From positions 912,748 to 976,747 of the forward strand of contig NZ_FNWL01000002.1 in NCBI RefSeq assembly GCF_900108095.1: a DNA stretch of 64,000 nt, given 5' to 3'. The notes beneath the pieces were generated by a model. That model did not search any database. It was given only the letters and a program-made list of their open reading frames with translations, and had not been told where the DNA came from. Position numbers and translations under genes: made by a program. Below, piece by piece: positions 29,794-36,328 of this stretch. The DNA is from Natronorubrum sediminis. Lineage in GTDB: Archaea > Halobacteriota > Halobacteria > Halobacteriales > Natrialbaceae. Positions within the stretch are counted from its first letter, which is position 1. Every line of letters begins with the position of its first letter.

Positions 29794-30372
29794 CCGTTCT
29801 CGGCGCATCCCGATACGTTCGGAGGGGAGAATCTGGACAACCAGTTAGCTGACAATATTGCTTGTAGTGGTCGACCTCAACCCGCAGCCAGGAGGAAACT
29901 CACTGAATCCGTAGATCACTGATGGAAGTTGATAAGAAAGCAAGGAATGGCCGGTAAGAACGAAATACGCGTCGCTAACGAGAGTCAGGAAAACACGGAA
30001 ATCAAGCGGTTCGAGCCCACTATCACAGAATAGCAGCACCAACGCTGACGTCAGGAAGTCAAGCATCGTCACCAACGGGTCTAATCGGTCAGCGAAACTG
30101 AATCGACCGTAATTATCGAACGCTTCGGACGCAGGCCGTTTCAACGCATGAACTGCCACCCGGCACAGACCACATTACAAGTTTCCAATATTTATCCGGC
30201 ACAGGCACCAGGAATGATAATTTGTCGCTTTTCCCTTCTAATTATTTAATTTGTAATAAATGTCGAGGGGACAACTAAGGGAGGCACATAAGTGTACTAC
30301 TGGTATACTCTCGAGGAACTGGAATGACACCTCGACAATACATTTATGGAATGGTCCTCCAATCTCACACTC
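29794..30372. other. AT-richer gap at the left flank of the island
   Basis: Composition shifts from CTCGAG-rich, GC-rich DNA to AT-richer DNA here. A 104-codon open frame on the minus strand (30159-29845) includes a hydrophobic stretch but has no recognisable domain and may be a gene remnant. At 30238-30260 a very AT-rich block (TTCTAATTATTTAATTTG) looks like a promoter. A second element, ACATTTATGG near 30340, lies about 30 bases before the small antitoxin-like gene. Confidence 0.45.
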
Positions 30373-30495
30373 ATGCCAACGATTAAAGTCCAAGAGTGGA
30401 CGAAAAAACGTCTGGAAGAAATCAAAGACGAAGAAGACCACACGTCACTTGATTCAGTCATCAAGTCACTTCTAAAAGAGCAAGAGAACCGATGA
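30373..30495 (+). CDS. Small antitoxin-like (DUF7557/VapB-type) protein
   Basis: 40 residues (41 codons). The sequence begins MPTIKVQEWTKKRLEEIKDE and ends SVIKSLLKEQENR: a short beta-strand followed by two helices, as in small archaeal ribbon-helix-helix or DUF7557/VapB-type antitoxins. Its TGA overlaps the next gene's ATG by four bases, so it was co-translated with the PLD-domain gene. A TTTATG element about 25 bases upstream of the ATG suggests a leaderless promoter for the whole island operon. It is too short for firm classification. A regulatory role for the island is inferred. Confidence 0.6.
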   Translation: MPTIKVQEWTKKRLEEIKDEEDHTSLDSVIKSLLKEQENR

Positions 30496-30935
30496 GGGAT
30501 ATTGGAAACCGGGTTATCGATAACAATGCTGGCTTGTTAACGGATGAGAAGGAGGGCAGTGTCCAAGATGTCTTTGAACACTACCTGAAGAAGGCAATTG
30601 AGGAAGACCGTTCGAACAGTTTCCGAATGGATATTGGAACGGGATTTCTCTTTTTCTCCGGATTTGAAACGATCGCAGACTCCTTTCAAGAATTGATTGA
30701 GACGGACGCCATCAGTCAAATCGAATATCCAGACTGGGGGACTGAGGCACCCATCAGGGTTGTAATGGGGCCAGAAACCTCCAACCCAACGAAATCAATC
30801 TTGCTCTCTCTTGTCACCGATCAGGTCATTGAGTACGATGACGAAGCAATCAAAGTTCTTCGACAGTTCATCAAACGGGACTTGGTTGATTTCCGGGTTA
30901 TCACCGAACGTAAGTTCCACCCAAAACGGGTCTGA
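30492..30935 (+). pseudogene. Truncated phospholipase-D-like N-terminal domain, probably of a helicase
   Basis: 147 codons remain. The start (GNRVIDNNAGLLTDEKEGSVQDVFEHYLKKA) and the FRMDIGTGFLFFSGFETIADSFQELI block resemble the PLD-like head found on SNF2-type helicases next to Eco57I-type methyltransferases. The frame ends RKFHPKRV-stop: FHPK is the expected HxK half of the HKD motif, and the protein is cut four codons after the His. The remainder, normally the rest of the PLD domain plus a large helicase, is missing. The ATG overlaps the preceding small gene by four bases. Identity as a helicase fragment is inference from domain style and neighbour. Confidence 0.6.
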
Positions 30936-30992
30936 TTTCTGACGAAGAAATGATAGAGACACTAAGTGCTGTCCGGGGACGATTGGAAGTAG

Positions 30993-31199
30993 ACACGTAC
31001 ACAGTCCCCCCAACGAAATAGCCTGGTGGACAACCTAACGTCGATTCAAGAAGAGGATTACAGTTGGACGGCGAACCCGAACAACGAAATTCGCAACTCA
31101 CCAGAATGGCAAACAATTATTCAAATGTCCGAGAAAGGGGCGGGCAAGTCCGGAGAAAGCGAAGTGAAGGCTGTCATCGAATACCAGAACAATGACTAG
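30993..31199 (+). pseudogene. C-terminal remnant of the deleted partner gene
   Basis: A reading frame without a start codon encodes NLTSIQEEDYSWTANPNN, then EIRNSPEWQTIIQMSEKGAG and SGESEVKAVIEYQNND before TAG at 31197-31199. It overlaps the methyltransferase ATG (31192) by eight bases, exactly as expected for an upstream operon gene. Just before it, a short separate frame (ETLSAVRGRLEVDTYTVPPTK-stop at 31019) is broken by a frameshift. The simplest reading is that one gene lost its middle by deletion and left both ends. Confidence 0.5.
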
Positions 31200-34100
31200 C
31201 GAAATGAGCTATTCGAATACGCTGGACGCGACACCTACGGAAAACGTCGGCGGTGATTATGGGTATGAATACTTGGTGAGTGCGGGGTACTTCGAGGAAC
31301 CTACATCGGATACCGTCGCGTACGACTCTGATCACGATGTCAAGTACCGATTCAGTATTGAGGGCTCTGTACGGATCGCGTACTTCGAGTTCCCGATGGC
31401 AGATGTCCCCCAGGATACGCCGAAGAAAATCGCGCAGGAACTGAAGCGGAGAACCCGTCTGCAGTACTTCTGGTTCTTTGACCCGAAAACCAACCGTGTT
31501 CAAGTATTCCGTGCGTCCCGGGGGAACTTCCAGTTCATCTACAACCCCAACATCCACACCGGTACATCGGCAGGAAATAAACTCGATAAACTGGAACAGG
31601 TCTCTGGAGACATCAACGTCCTTTTCGACTACAAGGACGTTGTTGACCGCTTCTACCGAGAACTCTGGGACCACCGCTCCAACCTTGCAAGTTCTCTCAC
31701 CACTAAGAGCGGATACACGCTCAGTAAGCAAGAGGAGCTCCTTTCCGCTCAACGAATCATCGACCGCTTGATTTTCCTCTACTTCCTCGTTGAACGCGGC
31801 GTCGTTATCCCCGTGAACGATTCCAAGGAGATGGTTCCAAGGAAAACGGACCGCGTGTTCAATACGCTCGTGGACGAGCACGATGACTTCTGGACGCTCC
31901 TCCAAACCATCTTCTTCGACCGACTGAACTCCCGAAACACCAACGACGTCAAATTCACCGGTTCCTACTGGCTCTACGTCCCGTACCTAAACGGCGGGAT
32001 CTTCCAGCCGCAGGACCTCACCACTACGGACGGAACCATCGTCTTCGAGGATGAAGAACTCGTCGTAGAAGACTTTGACTGGGACGCACTAATCAGCGAA
32101 CTCAACGAGTACAACTGGCTTCTGGACGGACTAGAGGGGACAGACGAAGATGAAGCAGACACCGTCGGAAACCTCACCCCGGCCGTCTTGGGGTACATCT
32201 ACGAGAAGTTCGTCATTTCGGTGAGTAAAGTAGGCGATGACGTCCGGCTTAGTGATTTAGACGCTTCCGAGCGAAACGACCTGCTCTCCGAGGGTAACAG
32301 TGAGGTCGGTGCGTACTACACCGGTGAGGACATAACCGACTTCAAAGCCCGCCGTGCGCTGTGGGAAGGCCTACTGGAGAAGATTGACGAAGACCTCGAC
32401 GAAGGAAAAGCACCGACAGCCCTCAATCCTGACGACCTGTACCGGGCTGGTGAGAACCAAACCGAGACAGTTGAATCTAACCAGAAGGACGGCTTCGACG
32501 TCCTTTACGAGGCTTACGAAGCCTCCCCGGAAGTCTTGGAGTACCTAGATTTGAAGCTACAAGAGTTGAAAGTGTGTGATCCCGCGGTCGGGAGCGGCTC
32601 ATTTGCTCTCGCAGTAGCGAACACGCTGTTCGGGTGGCGGTCGATGTGCCGACCTAACACCGATGAGTACGTACTCCGGCGACAGATCATCGCTCAGAAC
32701 ATCTTCGGTGTAGACATCCTAGAGGGGGCAACGGAAATCTGTAAGCTACGGCTGTGGCTGTGGCTGATAAGCGCGACTCCAGTAGCAACAACCGAAGGGG
32801 CACCCGTAGACGAACGTGACGAGATCCCACCCTTGCCGGACATCACGTTCAACATCCGAACCGGAAACAGCCTGCTCGGGTTCACTGAAACCGCTACAGC
32901 AACCGGGAAACAGCACACTTTGGGTTCTTCTACGATGGAGAACCAACTACGGCAATATGGGGAAGATGTTCGTGACTATAGAGAAGCTACTGACCCCGAG
33001 AAAGAGACGAAGCGTAAGCTCGAACGTCGCCACGACGACCTGAAAGAAGATCTCGATACGTGGTACGCAGGAGCTCAGAGCGATTCGAACAACAATCGTC
33101 TCTCGATTTCTGATCACGTTGATGACGTGAGTGCAGCATGGGACAGTCTGAATGCGGCCCCACAATCCTCCACGACACTCAGCATCAAAATCCCGGACGG
33201 GATACCCGAATCCGTTGACGAATATTTGGAAAGTCAGGAGTTCACCACGTACAAATACAAGGCACGGTTGGACAGCCCGACACTCAATAAGCAGGATGTC
33301 GAGAACATCTTCGACCAACTCCGGGAGCACTTCTCAGACCCAGACGATTGGAGTGTTCTCATCGAACGGGAGTACGCCGGACAAGACTTCCGAGAAGACA
33401 AACTGGATGCGTGCCACTGGCCGCTCGAATTCCCGCTCGTGTTCATGAAAGACGGCGGGTTCGACGTCATCATCAGCAATCCACCCTACGGGGCGTCCGT
33501 GAGCCCGGAAGAGGAACCCTTGTTGAAGAACGAGGCTAACTACGAATGCCAAGGGACGAACGACTCCTGTGAGTGGTTCTACGAACGAGCACTGGACCTC
33601 GTGCATGAACAGGGAGTCATCTCTTACATCGTCAACAAGAGCATAGCCTTCTACAGTTCGTGGTCCGACATTCGGGAACGACTGCTGGAAGAAACCGAAT
33701 TCAAGCATGTCTTCGATGTCGGACTCGGGTTCGTCGGAGTGAATCTCGAAACCATTGCCATAGTCAATACTCTCGGCAGCAATGGCCGGACAAGTGTCCC
33801 AACTGTACACCGGAGTAGAGACCTTCGAAGTACGACTGCGAACCAGCCAGTCCACCTTGGGTGGGTGGACCAGGAATTTATGATGGACTCGAAAACCATC
33901 ATTTTCCGACCGATAACCGACGATCAGAACGACGTTCTGGAACGGCTGCGCTCTCACGACCGTCGTCTTGGCGACGTAATGTCTACCGAAGACACGACGA
34001 GGCAGTTGTACATCCCGGATAGCAAGAAAAAGAAGTTGGCCGATGGCGACGACCACTACATCAACAAAAACCCGTGGGTTCAGGAGTTCTACTTGGAGGA

Positions 34101-34809
34101 TATCTGGCACAAGGACCTCAGTGACTACCAGGACTCCGTTACCGAGTACGCCGTTCCTCGCGTCATGTTGAAGGTACTCCGTGGCACCCGACTCCGGGCG
34201 TGGATCGACGCAAATGGAGAGGTAGTGGGTACGGAGAAGCTCGTAAATGTGCCCCTCGCAGACAGCAGTCCGGAGGAGGTCGCATTCGTATACGCAGCAC
34301 TCAACCACCCGTGTGCCTCCTACTACCTACAGAAAGCAATTTTCTCAGAAACAACGGAGAGTGCACGGGTGATGGACGGGCAGTACTCTAAACCGATCCC
34401 GATCCCAGCGGTTCCCTCTAACATCGAAACCCCAGTAGCACATCTCGCGTGGGCACTTACGCTAGCCAAACAACTGAACCACGACTCCAACCGGGATCTT
34501 TCAGAACAAATAACAACCCTACAGACCAGTCTGAACGCAATTCTCAGCTCTCTGTACTTAGACATCCACTCAGAAACGATCAACCGTTGGTGTACTACTG
34601 TCGGAGGCGAAGGGGCAGAGACTAAACGGCTTCAGGAATTGTTTAACCAGTTCTATACTGAACAGTTCGCCAACCGGAACGGCAGTCCAGAACAGTACTG
34701 GGACGAAATCGAAACCGTAGTGGACTCAACAGCCAACGCTGTCTCGCAATGGGATACTGAACAAATATCGAATTCACACGAGAGAGAGATCATCGAGGAA
34801 GTCCTCTAA
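31192..34809 (+). CDS. Large Eco57I-type DNA adenine methyltransferase (type IIG / DISARM-like methylase)
   Basis: 1205 residues, uninterrupted. After an N-terminal alpha/beta region, residues about 180-350 have the AQRIIDRLIFLYFLVERGVV and YVPYLNGGIFQP patterns typical of large Eco57I-family proteins. SAM motif I is CDPAVGSGSFALAVA near residue 463 and catalytic motif IV is NPPY at 763-766. The segment to about 950 completes the methylase; the last 250 residues look like a target-recognition domain. The N-terminal domain shows no clear PD-ExK set, so nuclease activity is doubtful. Its length and genomic style suit a type IIG R-M enzyme or the methylase of DISARM- or BREX-like defence. It likely adds N6-methyladenine. 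Codon use is markedly less GC-biased than in the flanks. Confidence 0.9.
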   Translation: MTSEMSYSNTLDATPTENVGGDYGYEYLVSAGYFEEPTSDTVAYDSDHDVKYRFSIEGSVRIAYFEFPMADVPQDTPKKIAQELKRRTRLQYFWFFDPKTNRVQVFRASRGNFQFIYNPNIHTGTSAGNKLDKLEQVSGDINVLFDYKDVVDRFYRELWDHRSNLASSLTTKSGYTLSKQEELLSAQRIIDRLIFLYFLVERGVVIPVNDSKEMVPRKTDRVFNTLVDEHDDFWTLLQTIFFDRLNSRNTNDVKFTGSYWLYVPYLNGGIFQPQDLTTTDGTIVFEDEELVVEDFDWDALISELNEYNWLLDGLEGTDEDEADTVGNLTPAVLGYIYEKFVISVSKVGDDVRLSDLDASERNDLLSEGNSEVGAYYTGEDITDFKARRALWEGLLEKIDEDLDEGKAPTALNPDDLYRAGENQTETVESNQKDGFDVLYEAYEASPEVLEYLDLKLQELKVCDPAVGSGSFALAVANTLFGWRSMCRPNTDEYVLRRQIIAQNIFGVDILEGATEICKLRLWLWLISATPVATTEGAPVDERDEIPPLPDITFNIRTGNSLLGFTETATATGKQHTLGSSTMENQLRQYGEDVRDYREATDPEKETKRKLERRHDDLKEDLDTWYAGAQSDSNNNRLSISDHVDDVSAAWDSLNAAPQSSTTLSIKIPDGIPESVDEYLESQEFTTYKYKARLDSPTLNKQDVENIFDQLREHFSDPDDWSVLIEREYAGQDFREDKLDACHWPLEFPLVFMKDGGFDVIISNPPYGASVSPEEEPLLKNEANYECQGTNDSCEWFYERALDLVHEQGVISYIVNKSIAFYSSWSDIRERLLEETEFKHVFDVGLGFVGVNLETIAIVNTLGSNGRTSVPTVHRSRDLRSTTANQPVHLGWVDQEFMMDSKTIIFRPITDDQNDVLERLRSHDRRLGDVMSTEDTTRQLYIPDSKKKKLADGDDHYINKNPWVQEFYLEDIWHKDLSDYQDSVTEYAVPRVMLKVLRGTRLRAWIDANGEVVGTEKLVNVPLADSSPEEVAFVYAALNHPCASYYLQKAIFSETTESARVMDGQYSKPIPIPAVPSNIETPVAHLAWALTLAKQLNHDSNRDLSEQITTLQTSLNAILSSLYLDIHSETINRWCTTVGGEGAETKRLQELFNQFYTEQFANRNGSPEQYWDEIETVVDSTANAVSQWDTEQISNSHEREIIEEVL

Positions 34810-34814
34810 AGTCC

Positions 34815-35435
34815 TCAGCGGAGATTAATGACGTCTCGAGGGTCACTACTACTTTCGCGGTTGATCTTCCGGAACCACGTGCTAAACTCATCCCAATCCA
34901 TCCCGTTCTCTGATTCTGGAATTGGCTGTGTATCGATGGGTTCAGCATGGTAATCATCGAAATCAGCGCTGAGGTCAATGTCGTTGACTTGTATGACGTG
35001 AGCTCCCTTATCTTTCGCAATGTAGTAGTAAACTTTCTCCTCCTCGTCGGTTCCTGGGGGAATTCGGATATAGGGCTGGGGGATACAATCGTCCGGTACA
35101 CCGTCTTCTGATTCAGCCTCTCTTACCGAGTAGTTCACGAGAAAGAGCACGCCGTCAAGTGCTTTTGTCAGCTGCCACAGCGACACGAACTTTCGTCCGT
35201 TTTTGTGCCAATAATTGTTCGGGTGGCTTGCATGAATGTCGAGTCGGTCCCTCCATTTGTATGGTGGATCAGAAAACGGTCCGCCGAGTTTCAGAAATTC
35301 AAATAGTACCCAGCCCATTTCTGGATGGTGCAGCAGGCGTTCCACGTTAACACCGAAGGTAGGATCATTGCCTAATGCCTCTTTCACGAAGAGGACTTCC
35401 GTCGCATCTTCCTTAGCCAGTTTCTTACTAGACAT
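34815..35435 (-). CDS. Unknown protein convergent with the DNA methyltransferase
   Basis: 206 residues, soluble. I do not recognise the family. Visible blocks are FGVNVERLLHHPEMGWVLFEFLK near residue 27, HPNNYWHKNGRKFVSLWQLTKALDGVLFLVNYS near residue 70-103, and KVYYYIAKDKGAHVIQVNDIDLSADFDDYHAEPI near residue 135-170. The alternating core strands and helices, with acidic and Lys residues near LVNYS and YYIAKDKG, leave a nuclease-like fold possible but not demonstrated. It ends five bases from the methyltransferase gene and shares its AT-richer composition, so it probably came in with the island. Confidence 0.7.
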   Translation of the reverse strand: MSSKKLAKEDATEVLFVKEALGNDPTFGVNVERLLHHPEMGWVLFEFLKLGGPFSDPPYKWRDRLDIHASHPNNYWHKNGRKFVSLWQLTKALDGVLFLVNYSVREAESEDGVPDDCIPQPYIRIPPGTDEEEKVYYYIAKDKGAHVIQVNDIDLSADFDDYHAEPIDTQPIPESENGMDWDEFSTWFRKINRESSSDPRDVINLR

Positions 35436-35553
35436 TTAATGATCGATTCAAATGAAACAATATAATACCAAAGGTTGGAGAGGTAAATTGAATACCCCCT
35501 GTCATAGAACGAGTCGCATAACTCCGTTCACCTTTGGACACCAGCCGTAAGAT

Positions 35554-35709
35554 TCACGTGACTCGCATCTGTTTCCCGTAGAAATTGATGACGGCACAGA
35601 TGAACCTACGGTGGAGAGACTTCCGCCCAGCCTCAGACCGATAATGCTTGCATCTACCCACGTAACGGATTCTGTGGGGTTTGTAGCCCTGGTGGGGGTC
35701 CGACGACAG
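35554..35709 (-). pseudogene. Protein-like fragment, 51 codons, no start codon
   Basis: Between two stops the frame reads SDPHQGYKPHRIRYVGRCKH and then RSEAGRKSLHRRFICAVINF, ending GKQMRVT. It has balanced composition and looks coding, but has no start and no family I can name. It may be what is left of an inserted gene. Confidence 0.3.
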
Positions 35710-36328
35710 TCACCACGCGTGCTCTTCATTTCGCGTCTGATACGGTTGACATCACAGGGAATATGAGCAGACTCCTTACTGTAAAGAAACTAAATTCCTC
35801 GCAAAACCGGCTGTAGGGGTACGACTGAACGATATCTGTCGAGAAGATGTGCGACAGGTGAGGTGAGAGACAGAGGTTCCGCATTCGACCCGGTAGTACG
35901 TTCAACATGTGATTGTTGGGGGAGTGGTGTCATAGTTTGAGCCGTAGCTAACAGCGCTAGTGTAAATCACGTATCGTTTTGTACACTCGTCCCTCCGAAC
36001 GTGTAGTGTCCCTCGATTCCATATTGCATTATATGATTTATGTTGGCTGACCAGCCGATATTCTATCGCTACAAACCTCGCCGTGCAGCCCCTCTCATGG
36101 GTGAAATCATCTATAGTCTAAATTGGCGGACCAACAAGACACAGATTGGCTCAGGCACGTCACCAACAGCACAACAATGCAGGGTCGCCTTCGAGAAAAC
36201 TGTCGTAGACTCACGATCGGAACGGCGAGAAGAATACCTGAACCCATGTACGCCTGATCGTCGACGTGTCCAGCGACCTGGTGTACACTGACGTGCAGTG
36301 GCTACTCTAGCCGTTGATAGGGCACTCG

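Follow-up and report, generated by a model that had tools for sequence, protein, structure and literature searches.

The window, by which we mean the whole 64,000-nucleotide stretch of Natronorubrum sediminis DNA that was analysed, contains a complete methylase gene preceded by the two ends of a helicase gene. A small ribbon-helix-helix-like gene on the forward strand (30373-30495) comes first; it has a weak, VapB-antitoxin-like Pfam match (VAPB_antitox, below cut-off), and its start codon is uncertain, with an upstream ATG at 30346. This gene overlaps the helicase start by 4 bases, is kept 5' of the intact helicase at five related loci (L035, L036, L037, L056 and L065) and is presumed to be the first of the operon. 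On the same strand follow the 5' remnant of the helicase gene (30492-30935), a deletion junction between 30927 and 30928, the 3' remnant (30928-31199) and the gene for a 1205-residue N6-adenine DNA methyltransferase of the Eco57I/PglX/type IIG-like kind (31192-34809; Pfam Eco57I, E 7e-26), which carries DPAVGSG at residue 463 and NPPY at residue 763 and is free of stops and frameshifts. A convergent gene on the reverse strand (34815-35435) encodes a 206-residue protein that belongs to the cassette in some of the relatives (77-97% identity in L035, L036, L037 and L058).

In another genome of the same genus (G103, locus L035), the cassette likewise sits between subtilase and RIO-kinase-like genes, while in G105 these two genes lie about 1 kb apart and the cassette is absent. 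The edges of the cassette are variable, as its flanks at 29820-30268 and 35549-35899 of the window are replaced in G103 by 37 bp and 9 bp, respectively. Beyond it, at 36238-36312, lies a short element of ~75 bp that is dispersed in many copies across the genomes of the genus; it matches no tRNA or Rfam family, and searches of the region for either found none. Beside the cassette, two relatives carry a gene for a conserved uncharacterized protein and, after it, an additional gene for a TATA-binding protein (L036 16098-17143 and L059 9965-10881).

Comparison with L035 defines the damage to the helicase gene precisely. By blastn, positions 30269-30927 of the window correspond to L035 7880-8538 (95.3% identity) and positions 30928-35548 to L035 11093-15714 (96.1%), and both blastn and base-by-base alignment show that the 2554 bp in between (L035 8539-11092) have no counterpart in the window. 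The junction, CCCAAAAC joined to GGGTCTGATTTC, is clean and without useful microhomology. The 147-codon open reading frame on its 5' side represents residues 1-145 of the helicase, is cut just past the HxK of the PLD motif and terminates in FHPK followed by a chance RV-stop; its 94% identity over 145 residues to the N-terminus of the 1086-residue G103 protein excludes a chance match. The sequence on the 3' side encodes residues ~995-1086 (96% DNA identity to L035; tblastn pieces 995-1026 and 1023-1086) and holds a second lesion, a run at 31006-31011 with six C in the window versus five in L035, which shifts the frame. The two lesions make a net change of -2553 bp that nominally restores the frame, but the frame after the deletion runs into TGA at 30933, a second TGA stands at 30951, and the extra C comes only past both, so that this restoration is blocked. 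The last open frame (31026-31199) shares 8 bases with the start of the methylase at its ATG (31192), exactly as the intact helicase of L035 does.

The fragments themselves are silent in profile databases (147 residues: no match in Pfam, PADLOC or NCBIfam; 57 residues: none in Pfam or PADLOC), and thus they can be identified by their relatives only. When the 147-residue protein was compared with 125 genomes of the window's family, three other genomes matched, and in each the match forms the beginning of a longer open frame (1088-1104 codons). It is, moreover, the N-terminus of a 1086-residue protein at all five intact loci, which excludes that it is a complete and conserved small protein. The sequence-only reading had taken the upstream frame ending in FHPKRV-stop and the frame-shifted pieces at 30936-31199 for what an internal deletion had left of a large PLD-helicase, with the methyltransferase still open; this is borne out in each part, and the two fragments do prove to be opposite ends of a single SNF2/PLD helicase that is encoded next to homologs of the methylase. 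The locus is a decayed form of a two-gene cassette, in which the PLD-SNF2 helicase was destroyed by the 2554-bp deletion and the methylase is whole.

It might be objected that the strain has an intact helicase and that the break arose in assembly, as the locus is judged on assembled sequence and one of the lesions is a one-base homopolymer difference, which could be a sequencing error. However, a 2554-bp gap whose junction lies in non-repeated sequence is hard to explain by misassembly, the missing 2554 bp are found nowhere in a genome that is 99% complete, and this gene has also been lost in relatives, with breaks at different points. When the intact protein was searched against the window's whole genome, residues 1-154, 995-1026 and 1023-1086 matched at the locus and matches elsewhere reached just 26-39% identity, so that the middle of the helicase is gone rather than moved. 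We regard an assembly artefact as exceedingly improbable.

What was lost can be read from the intact partner. The helicase of G103 (1086 residues; L035 8103-11363) ends 8 bases inside the gene of a 1205-residue methylase to which that of the window is 97% identical. Weak matches of the NgoFVII-type and PLDc_2 kinds (residues 111-199) mark its N-terminal PLD domain, and its SF2/SNF2 motor is complete (Helicase_C, E 3e-23; ResIII, E 4e-13). The motifs FHPK...GSANFS (PLD), SVGTGKT (Walker A), DEAH and QRTGRALR (motif VI) are present in five out of five intact helicases, and the remnant in the window retains only FHPK. The five loci belong to G103, Haloarchaeobius sp. FL176 (G005), Natronococcus occultus SP4 (G089, plasmid 2), Haloferax marinum (G308) and Halorientalis persicus (L065); intact pairs are rare, occurring in 4 genomes out of a class-wide sample of 391. 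More distant pairs were found in Haladaptatus halobius, where the two genes adjoin each other next to an integrase gene (helicase 43% and methylase 33% identity), and on plasmid pMETOK01 of Methanothermococcus okinawensis (L077), where one small gene separates them; this small plasmid also carries genes for RelE and MazF-type toxins. A search of viral contigs for either protein found none that encodes it.

The division of labor within the pair is hinted at by Halorientalis persicus, whose methylase (L065 7983-11615) matches that of L036 closely up to residue ~840 and then at only ~25% identity, although the helicases of the two loci are 98.2% identical. This is likely an exchange of target specificity. 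A swapped methylase C-terminus beside an unchanged helicase suggests that the methylase picks the site for both; it probably supplies the target specificity of both cassette proteins. In type III systems, too, it is Mod that chooses the target site for both partners. From this swap, together with the rate pattern described below, we place a putative target-recognition region at residues ~881-1100 (33832-34491 of the window, forward strand).

The pair resembles several known systems. A literature search found no publication that describes it as a system, although this does not prove that none exists. Among published architectures, the closest is that of the Type-2 BREX-related (BR) systems, in which an HKD (PLD) nuclease is fused N-terminally to a Swi2/Snf2 helicase and occurs with an N6 methylase (Rakesh and Krishnan 2026, PMC12839542), a combination common to the intact relatives. 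BR systems center on a DUF499 ATPase with DUF3780 (PMC12839542), and we rejected membership because the DUF499 ATPase is missing from the locus: it is absent from G000, G103, G089, G308 and G248, and the matches in G005, G472 and G376 lie on contigs other than that of the cassette. DISARM class 1 (DrmD and DrmMI) and ARMADA (PMC12458937) also share an SNF2-like helicase beside a PglX-like methylase, and the DrmD and DrmMI profiles match the cassette; DISARM class 1 was rejected, as DrmD scores 117 bits against a curated cut-off of 610. YprA-like DrmA, DrmB and a separate DrmC were found neither among the annotated neighbors in Haladaptatus and Natronococcus nor among the open reading frames around L035 and L036. 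BREX (PglX) was rejected likewise (BREX_1_MTaseX, 59 bits versus a cut-off of 500), and the annotated neighbors of the methylase in Haladaptatus and Natronococcus include neither PglZ nor BrxC. In Haloterrigena, the BREX-like PglX family HG5 with the motif CTGGAG (PMC10609329) is another PglX-like methylase that persists in a haloarchaeal genus.

Orphan DNA methyltransferases are known in Halobacteria, and the decay of restriction systems has been named as one of their sources (Fullmer et al. 2019, PMC6471742). The widespread haloarchaeal orphans are CTAG and GATC methylases (PMC6471742). The window shares with them a methylase without a cognate restriction gene, but differs in that this is a 1205-residue PglX/IIG-like protein with the remnants of its lost partner still adjoining. 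With an intact methylase, no effector nearby and no other close helicase copy in the genome, it fits a restriction-derived orphan methyltransferase, and the helicase remnants next to the methylase show that it originated by decay.

The window is not alone in this. Intact methylases without an intact helicase were also found at L057, L058, L059, L060 and L064 and in a deep clade (L038-L041). The methylase is intact in MAG SW_7_65_23, where the helicase is left just from residue ~937 on; in Halovenus MAG LUM.6, where only residues 1052-1086 remain; in MAG QS_5_70_17, where 304 bp of upstream sequence hold no helicase; and in the single-contig genome G248 (L058), where the helicase has left no trace. 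In Halocatena pleomorpha (L057), the helicase is present from residue ~975, with two stops and a change of frame, and adjoins CRISPR-like repeats at the contig end, as if it had been cut by the array or by a rearrangement there; this array (L057 1-300, at the contig start; repeat GTTACAGCAGGACCCTAGACGGGTTGAAG) runs straight into the truncated gene. L057 and L064 end near contig edges. The four members of the deep clade (43-50% identity) have a damaged or absent helicase. The helicase-less genomes contain no close copy of the helicase at any other place, and no broken methylase was seen at any of the loci examined, whether intact pair or helicase-less.

In the methylase tree, which was rooted with two distant pairs, the helicase-less copies are interspersed with copies from intact pairs. 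The window, L059, L060 and L057, which are the loci with effector remnants beside the methylase, represent separate losses, and L058, L064 and L038-L041 group together and represent one further, older loss. By parsimony on this tree, in which some inner nodes are weakly supported (57-75), the helicase was lost at least five times independently in the family, four times with remnants. The differing end points of the remnants also argue for independent events. The deep clade has the same surroundings in Halopiger djelfimassiliensis and in another genus (L039 and L040 share more than 7 kb upstream), so that the methylase is inherited there as a solitary gene.

If the methylase were a self-contained type IIG restriction enzyme, restriction would survive the loss of the helicase. 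PADLOC type IIG models do match it (E 8e-35), its methylase domain is similar to that of type IIG enzymes such as BpuSI and DrdV, and a model of its N-terminus resembles restriction-endonuclease folds, including those of BpuSI, DrdV and DUF820 proteins, at a middling Z of 4.5-5.8 (VIA-align). However, the fold resemblance is weak, as a Foldseek search with the N-terminus gave no match below E 0.001, and in the alignment the strand with E66 lacks the usual active-site Asp of PD-(D/E)XK nucleases and no Lys is conserved, so that no nuclease is evident after the loss of the helicase. Furthermore, the pairing with the PLD-helicase, the evident effector here, is conserved as far as the methanogen plasmid. 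We find the type IIG explanation improbable.

Another way for restriction to persist would be re-partnering, whereby the helicase-less loci use another nuclease, for instance the convergent 206-residue protein, as a different restriction system. This protein is very conserved, occurs in some cassettes both with and without the helicase, and persists in the window as well as in L058, which lacks the helicase; it has no Pfam match and a weak PADLOC REase_II match (E 4e-4). Against this, three helicase-less loci (L057, L059 and L060) lack its gene or most of it, the gene also accompanies intact helicases, and the protein has no assignable nuclease motif or fold, its structure model being unusable (pLDDT 43) and without a convincing solved relative. 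Re-partnering thus seems very improbable.

The remaining question is whether the solitary methylases are maintained. We used a custom codon branch model that compares the six helicase-less terminal branches with all other branches, excluding L065 because of its swapped C-terminal part. Omega was 0.139 on the helicase-less branches versus 0.078 elsewhere (2dlnL 40.6, p 2e-10), and omega = 1 was rejected for them (2dlnL 872). Terminal branches with an intact helicase gave 0.080, so that the rise is not explained by terminal position. Taken singly, all six branches lie above the background (p 0.04 to 6e-9), with neutrality rejected on each. Of the six loci, three come from metagenome bins and one from an Ion Torrent assembly, and errors in these could inflate omega; the window and the single-contig genome G248 nevertheless show the same trend. 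The relaxation is also uneven along the protein: residues 1-880 relax about twofold in the helicase-less lineages, whereas residues 881-1205 do not (interaction p 0.002, with the 880/881 boundary set after the C-terminal swap was seen).

A raised omega in every helicase-less branch is what one would expect of plain decay, in which the cassette is a selfish restriction element whose methylase, once the effector is gone, is useless and just slow to decay. However, a neutral excess of replacements should have been accompanied by about 12 stop codons across the six lineages, and none was found. The rejection of omega = 1 on every branch, the unrelaxed recognition end and the deep solitary clade, with its full open reading frames, omega of 0.20 and surroundings common to two genera, also speak against plain decay, and we consider it rather unlikely. 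The helicase-less methylases as a set are under constraint, with omega far below neutrality. For the window alone the test is weak: its branch gave an omega of 0.18-0.20 with neutrality rejected (2dlnL 24-30), but just 0.3 stops are expected on it under a neutral excess, so that its methylase would probably still be open by chance, and the deletion, which cannot be dated and may be young, may have occurred after most of this branch.

Taken together, we think it likely that the family is a restriction-like pair that sheds its effector time and again, with selection preserving the methylation of the same motif. The cassette would combine a PLD-nuclease/SNF2-translocase protein with a large N6-adenine methylase to act as a restriction-like system. 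The deletion in the window took away the remainder of the PLD site together with the entire motor, leaving nothing recognizable to restrict DNA. Loss of the effector should be safe as the genome stays methylated, whereas a cell that lost the methylase first would be exposed to its own nuclease. This asymmetry is expected from restriction biology in general, and it fits five losses of the helicase versus none of the methylase. After the loss, selection would still maintain the methylation of the same motif, and the surfaces that served the helicase would relax. As the sequence-only reading had also suggested, the left-over methylase might act as an orphan epigenetic mark or in anti-restriction; the protection could be against intact copies of the system that mating partners carry, or against re-invading cassettes, a benefit that is weakened by the rarity of intact pairs. 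It is tempting to go further and to speculate that the cassette repeatedly becomes a conserved orphan methylase, of which only the methylation of its own motif, by the recognition end, is kept, perhaps as protection from the cassette itself or as a new epigenetic mark, and that this conversion is its usual fate. This idea is possible, and we hold it tentatively.

How orphan methylases originate is a matter of dispute. According to a survey of 43 pan-genomes, it is rare for a solitary methylase gene to derive from a complete system by decay (PMC4176335), and the rarity of this route has been repeated for Halobacteria (PMC6471742). The present family looks like a counterexample: in one archaeal family, at least five effector losses, four of them with visible remnants, stand against not one loss of the methylase, and sister loci with the intact pair serve as controls. 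Orphaning here has a measurable signature, an about twofold relaxation of constraint everywhere but at the recognition end. The family also makes it directly testable whether the surviving methylases are active, whether they recognize the same motif and whether they protect against the intact system. If the repeated conversion to orphans is true, these archaea would provide a documented route of decay in which passage from an effector-bearing pair to an orphan methylase is usual and not rare.
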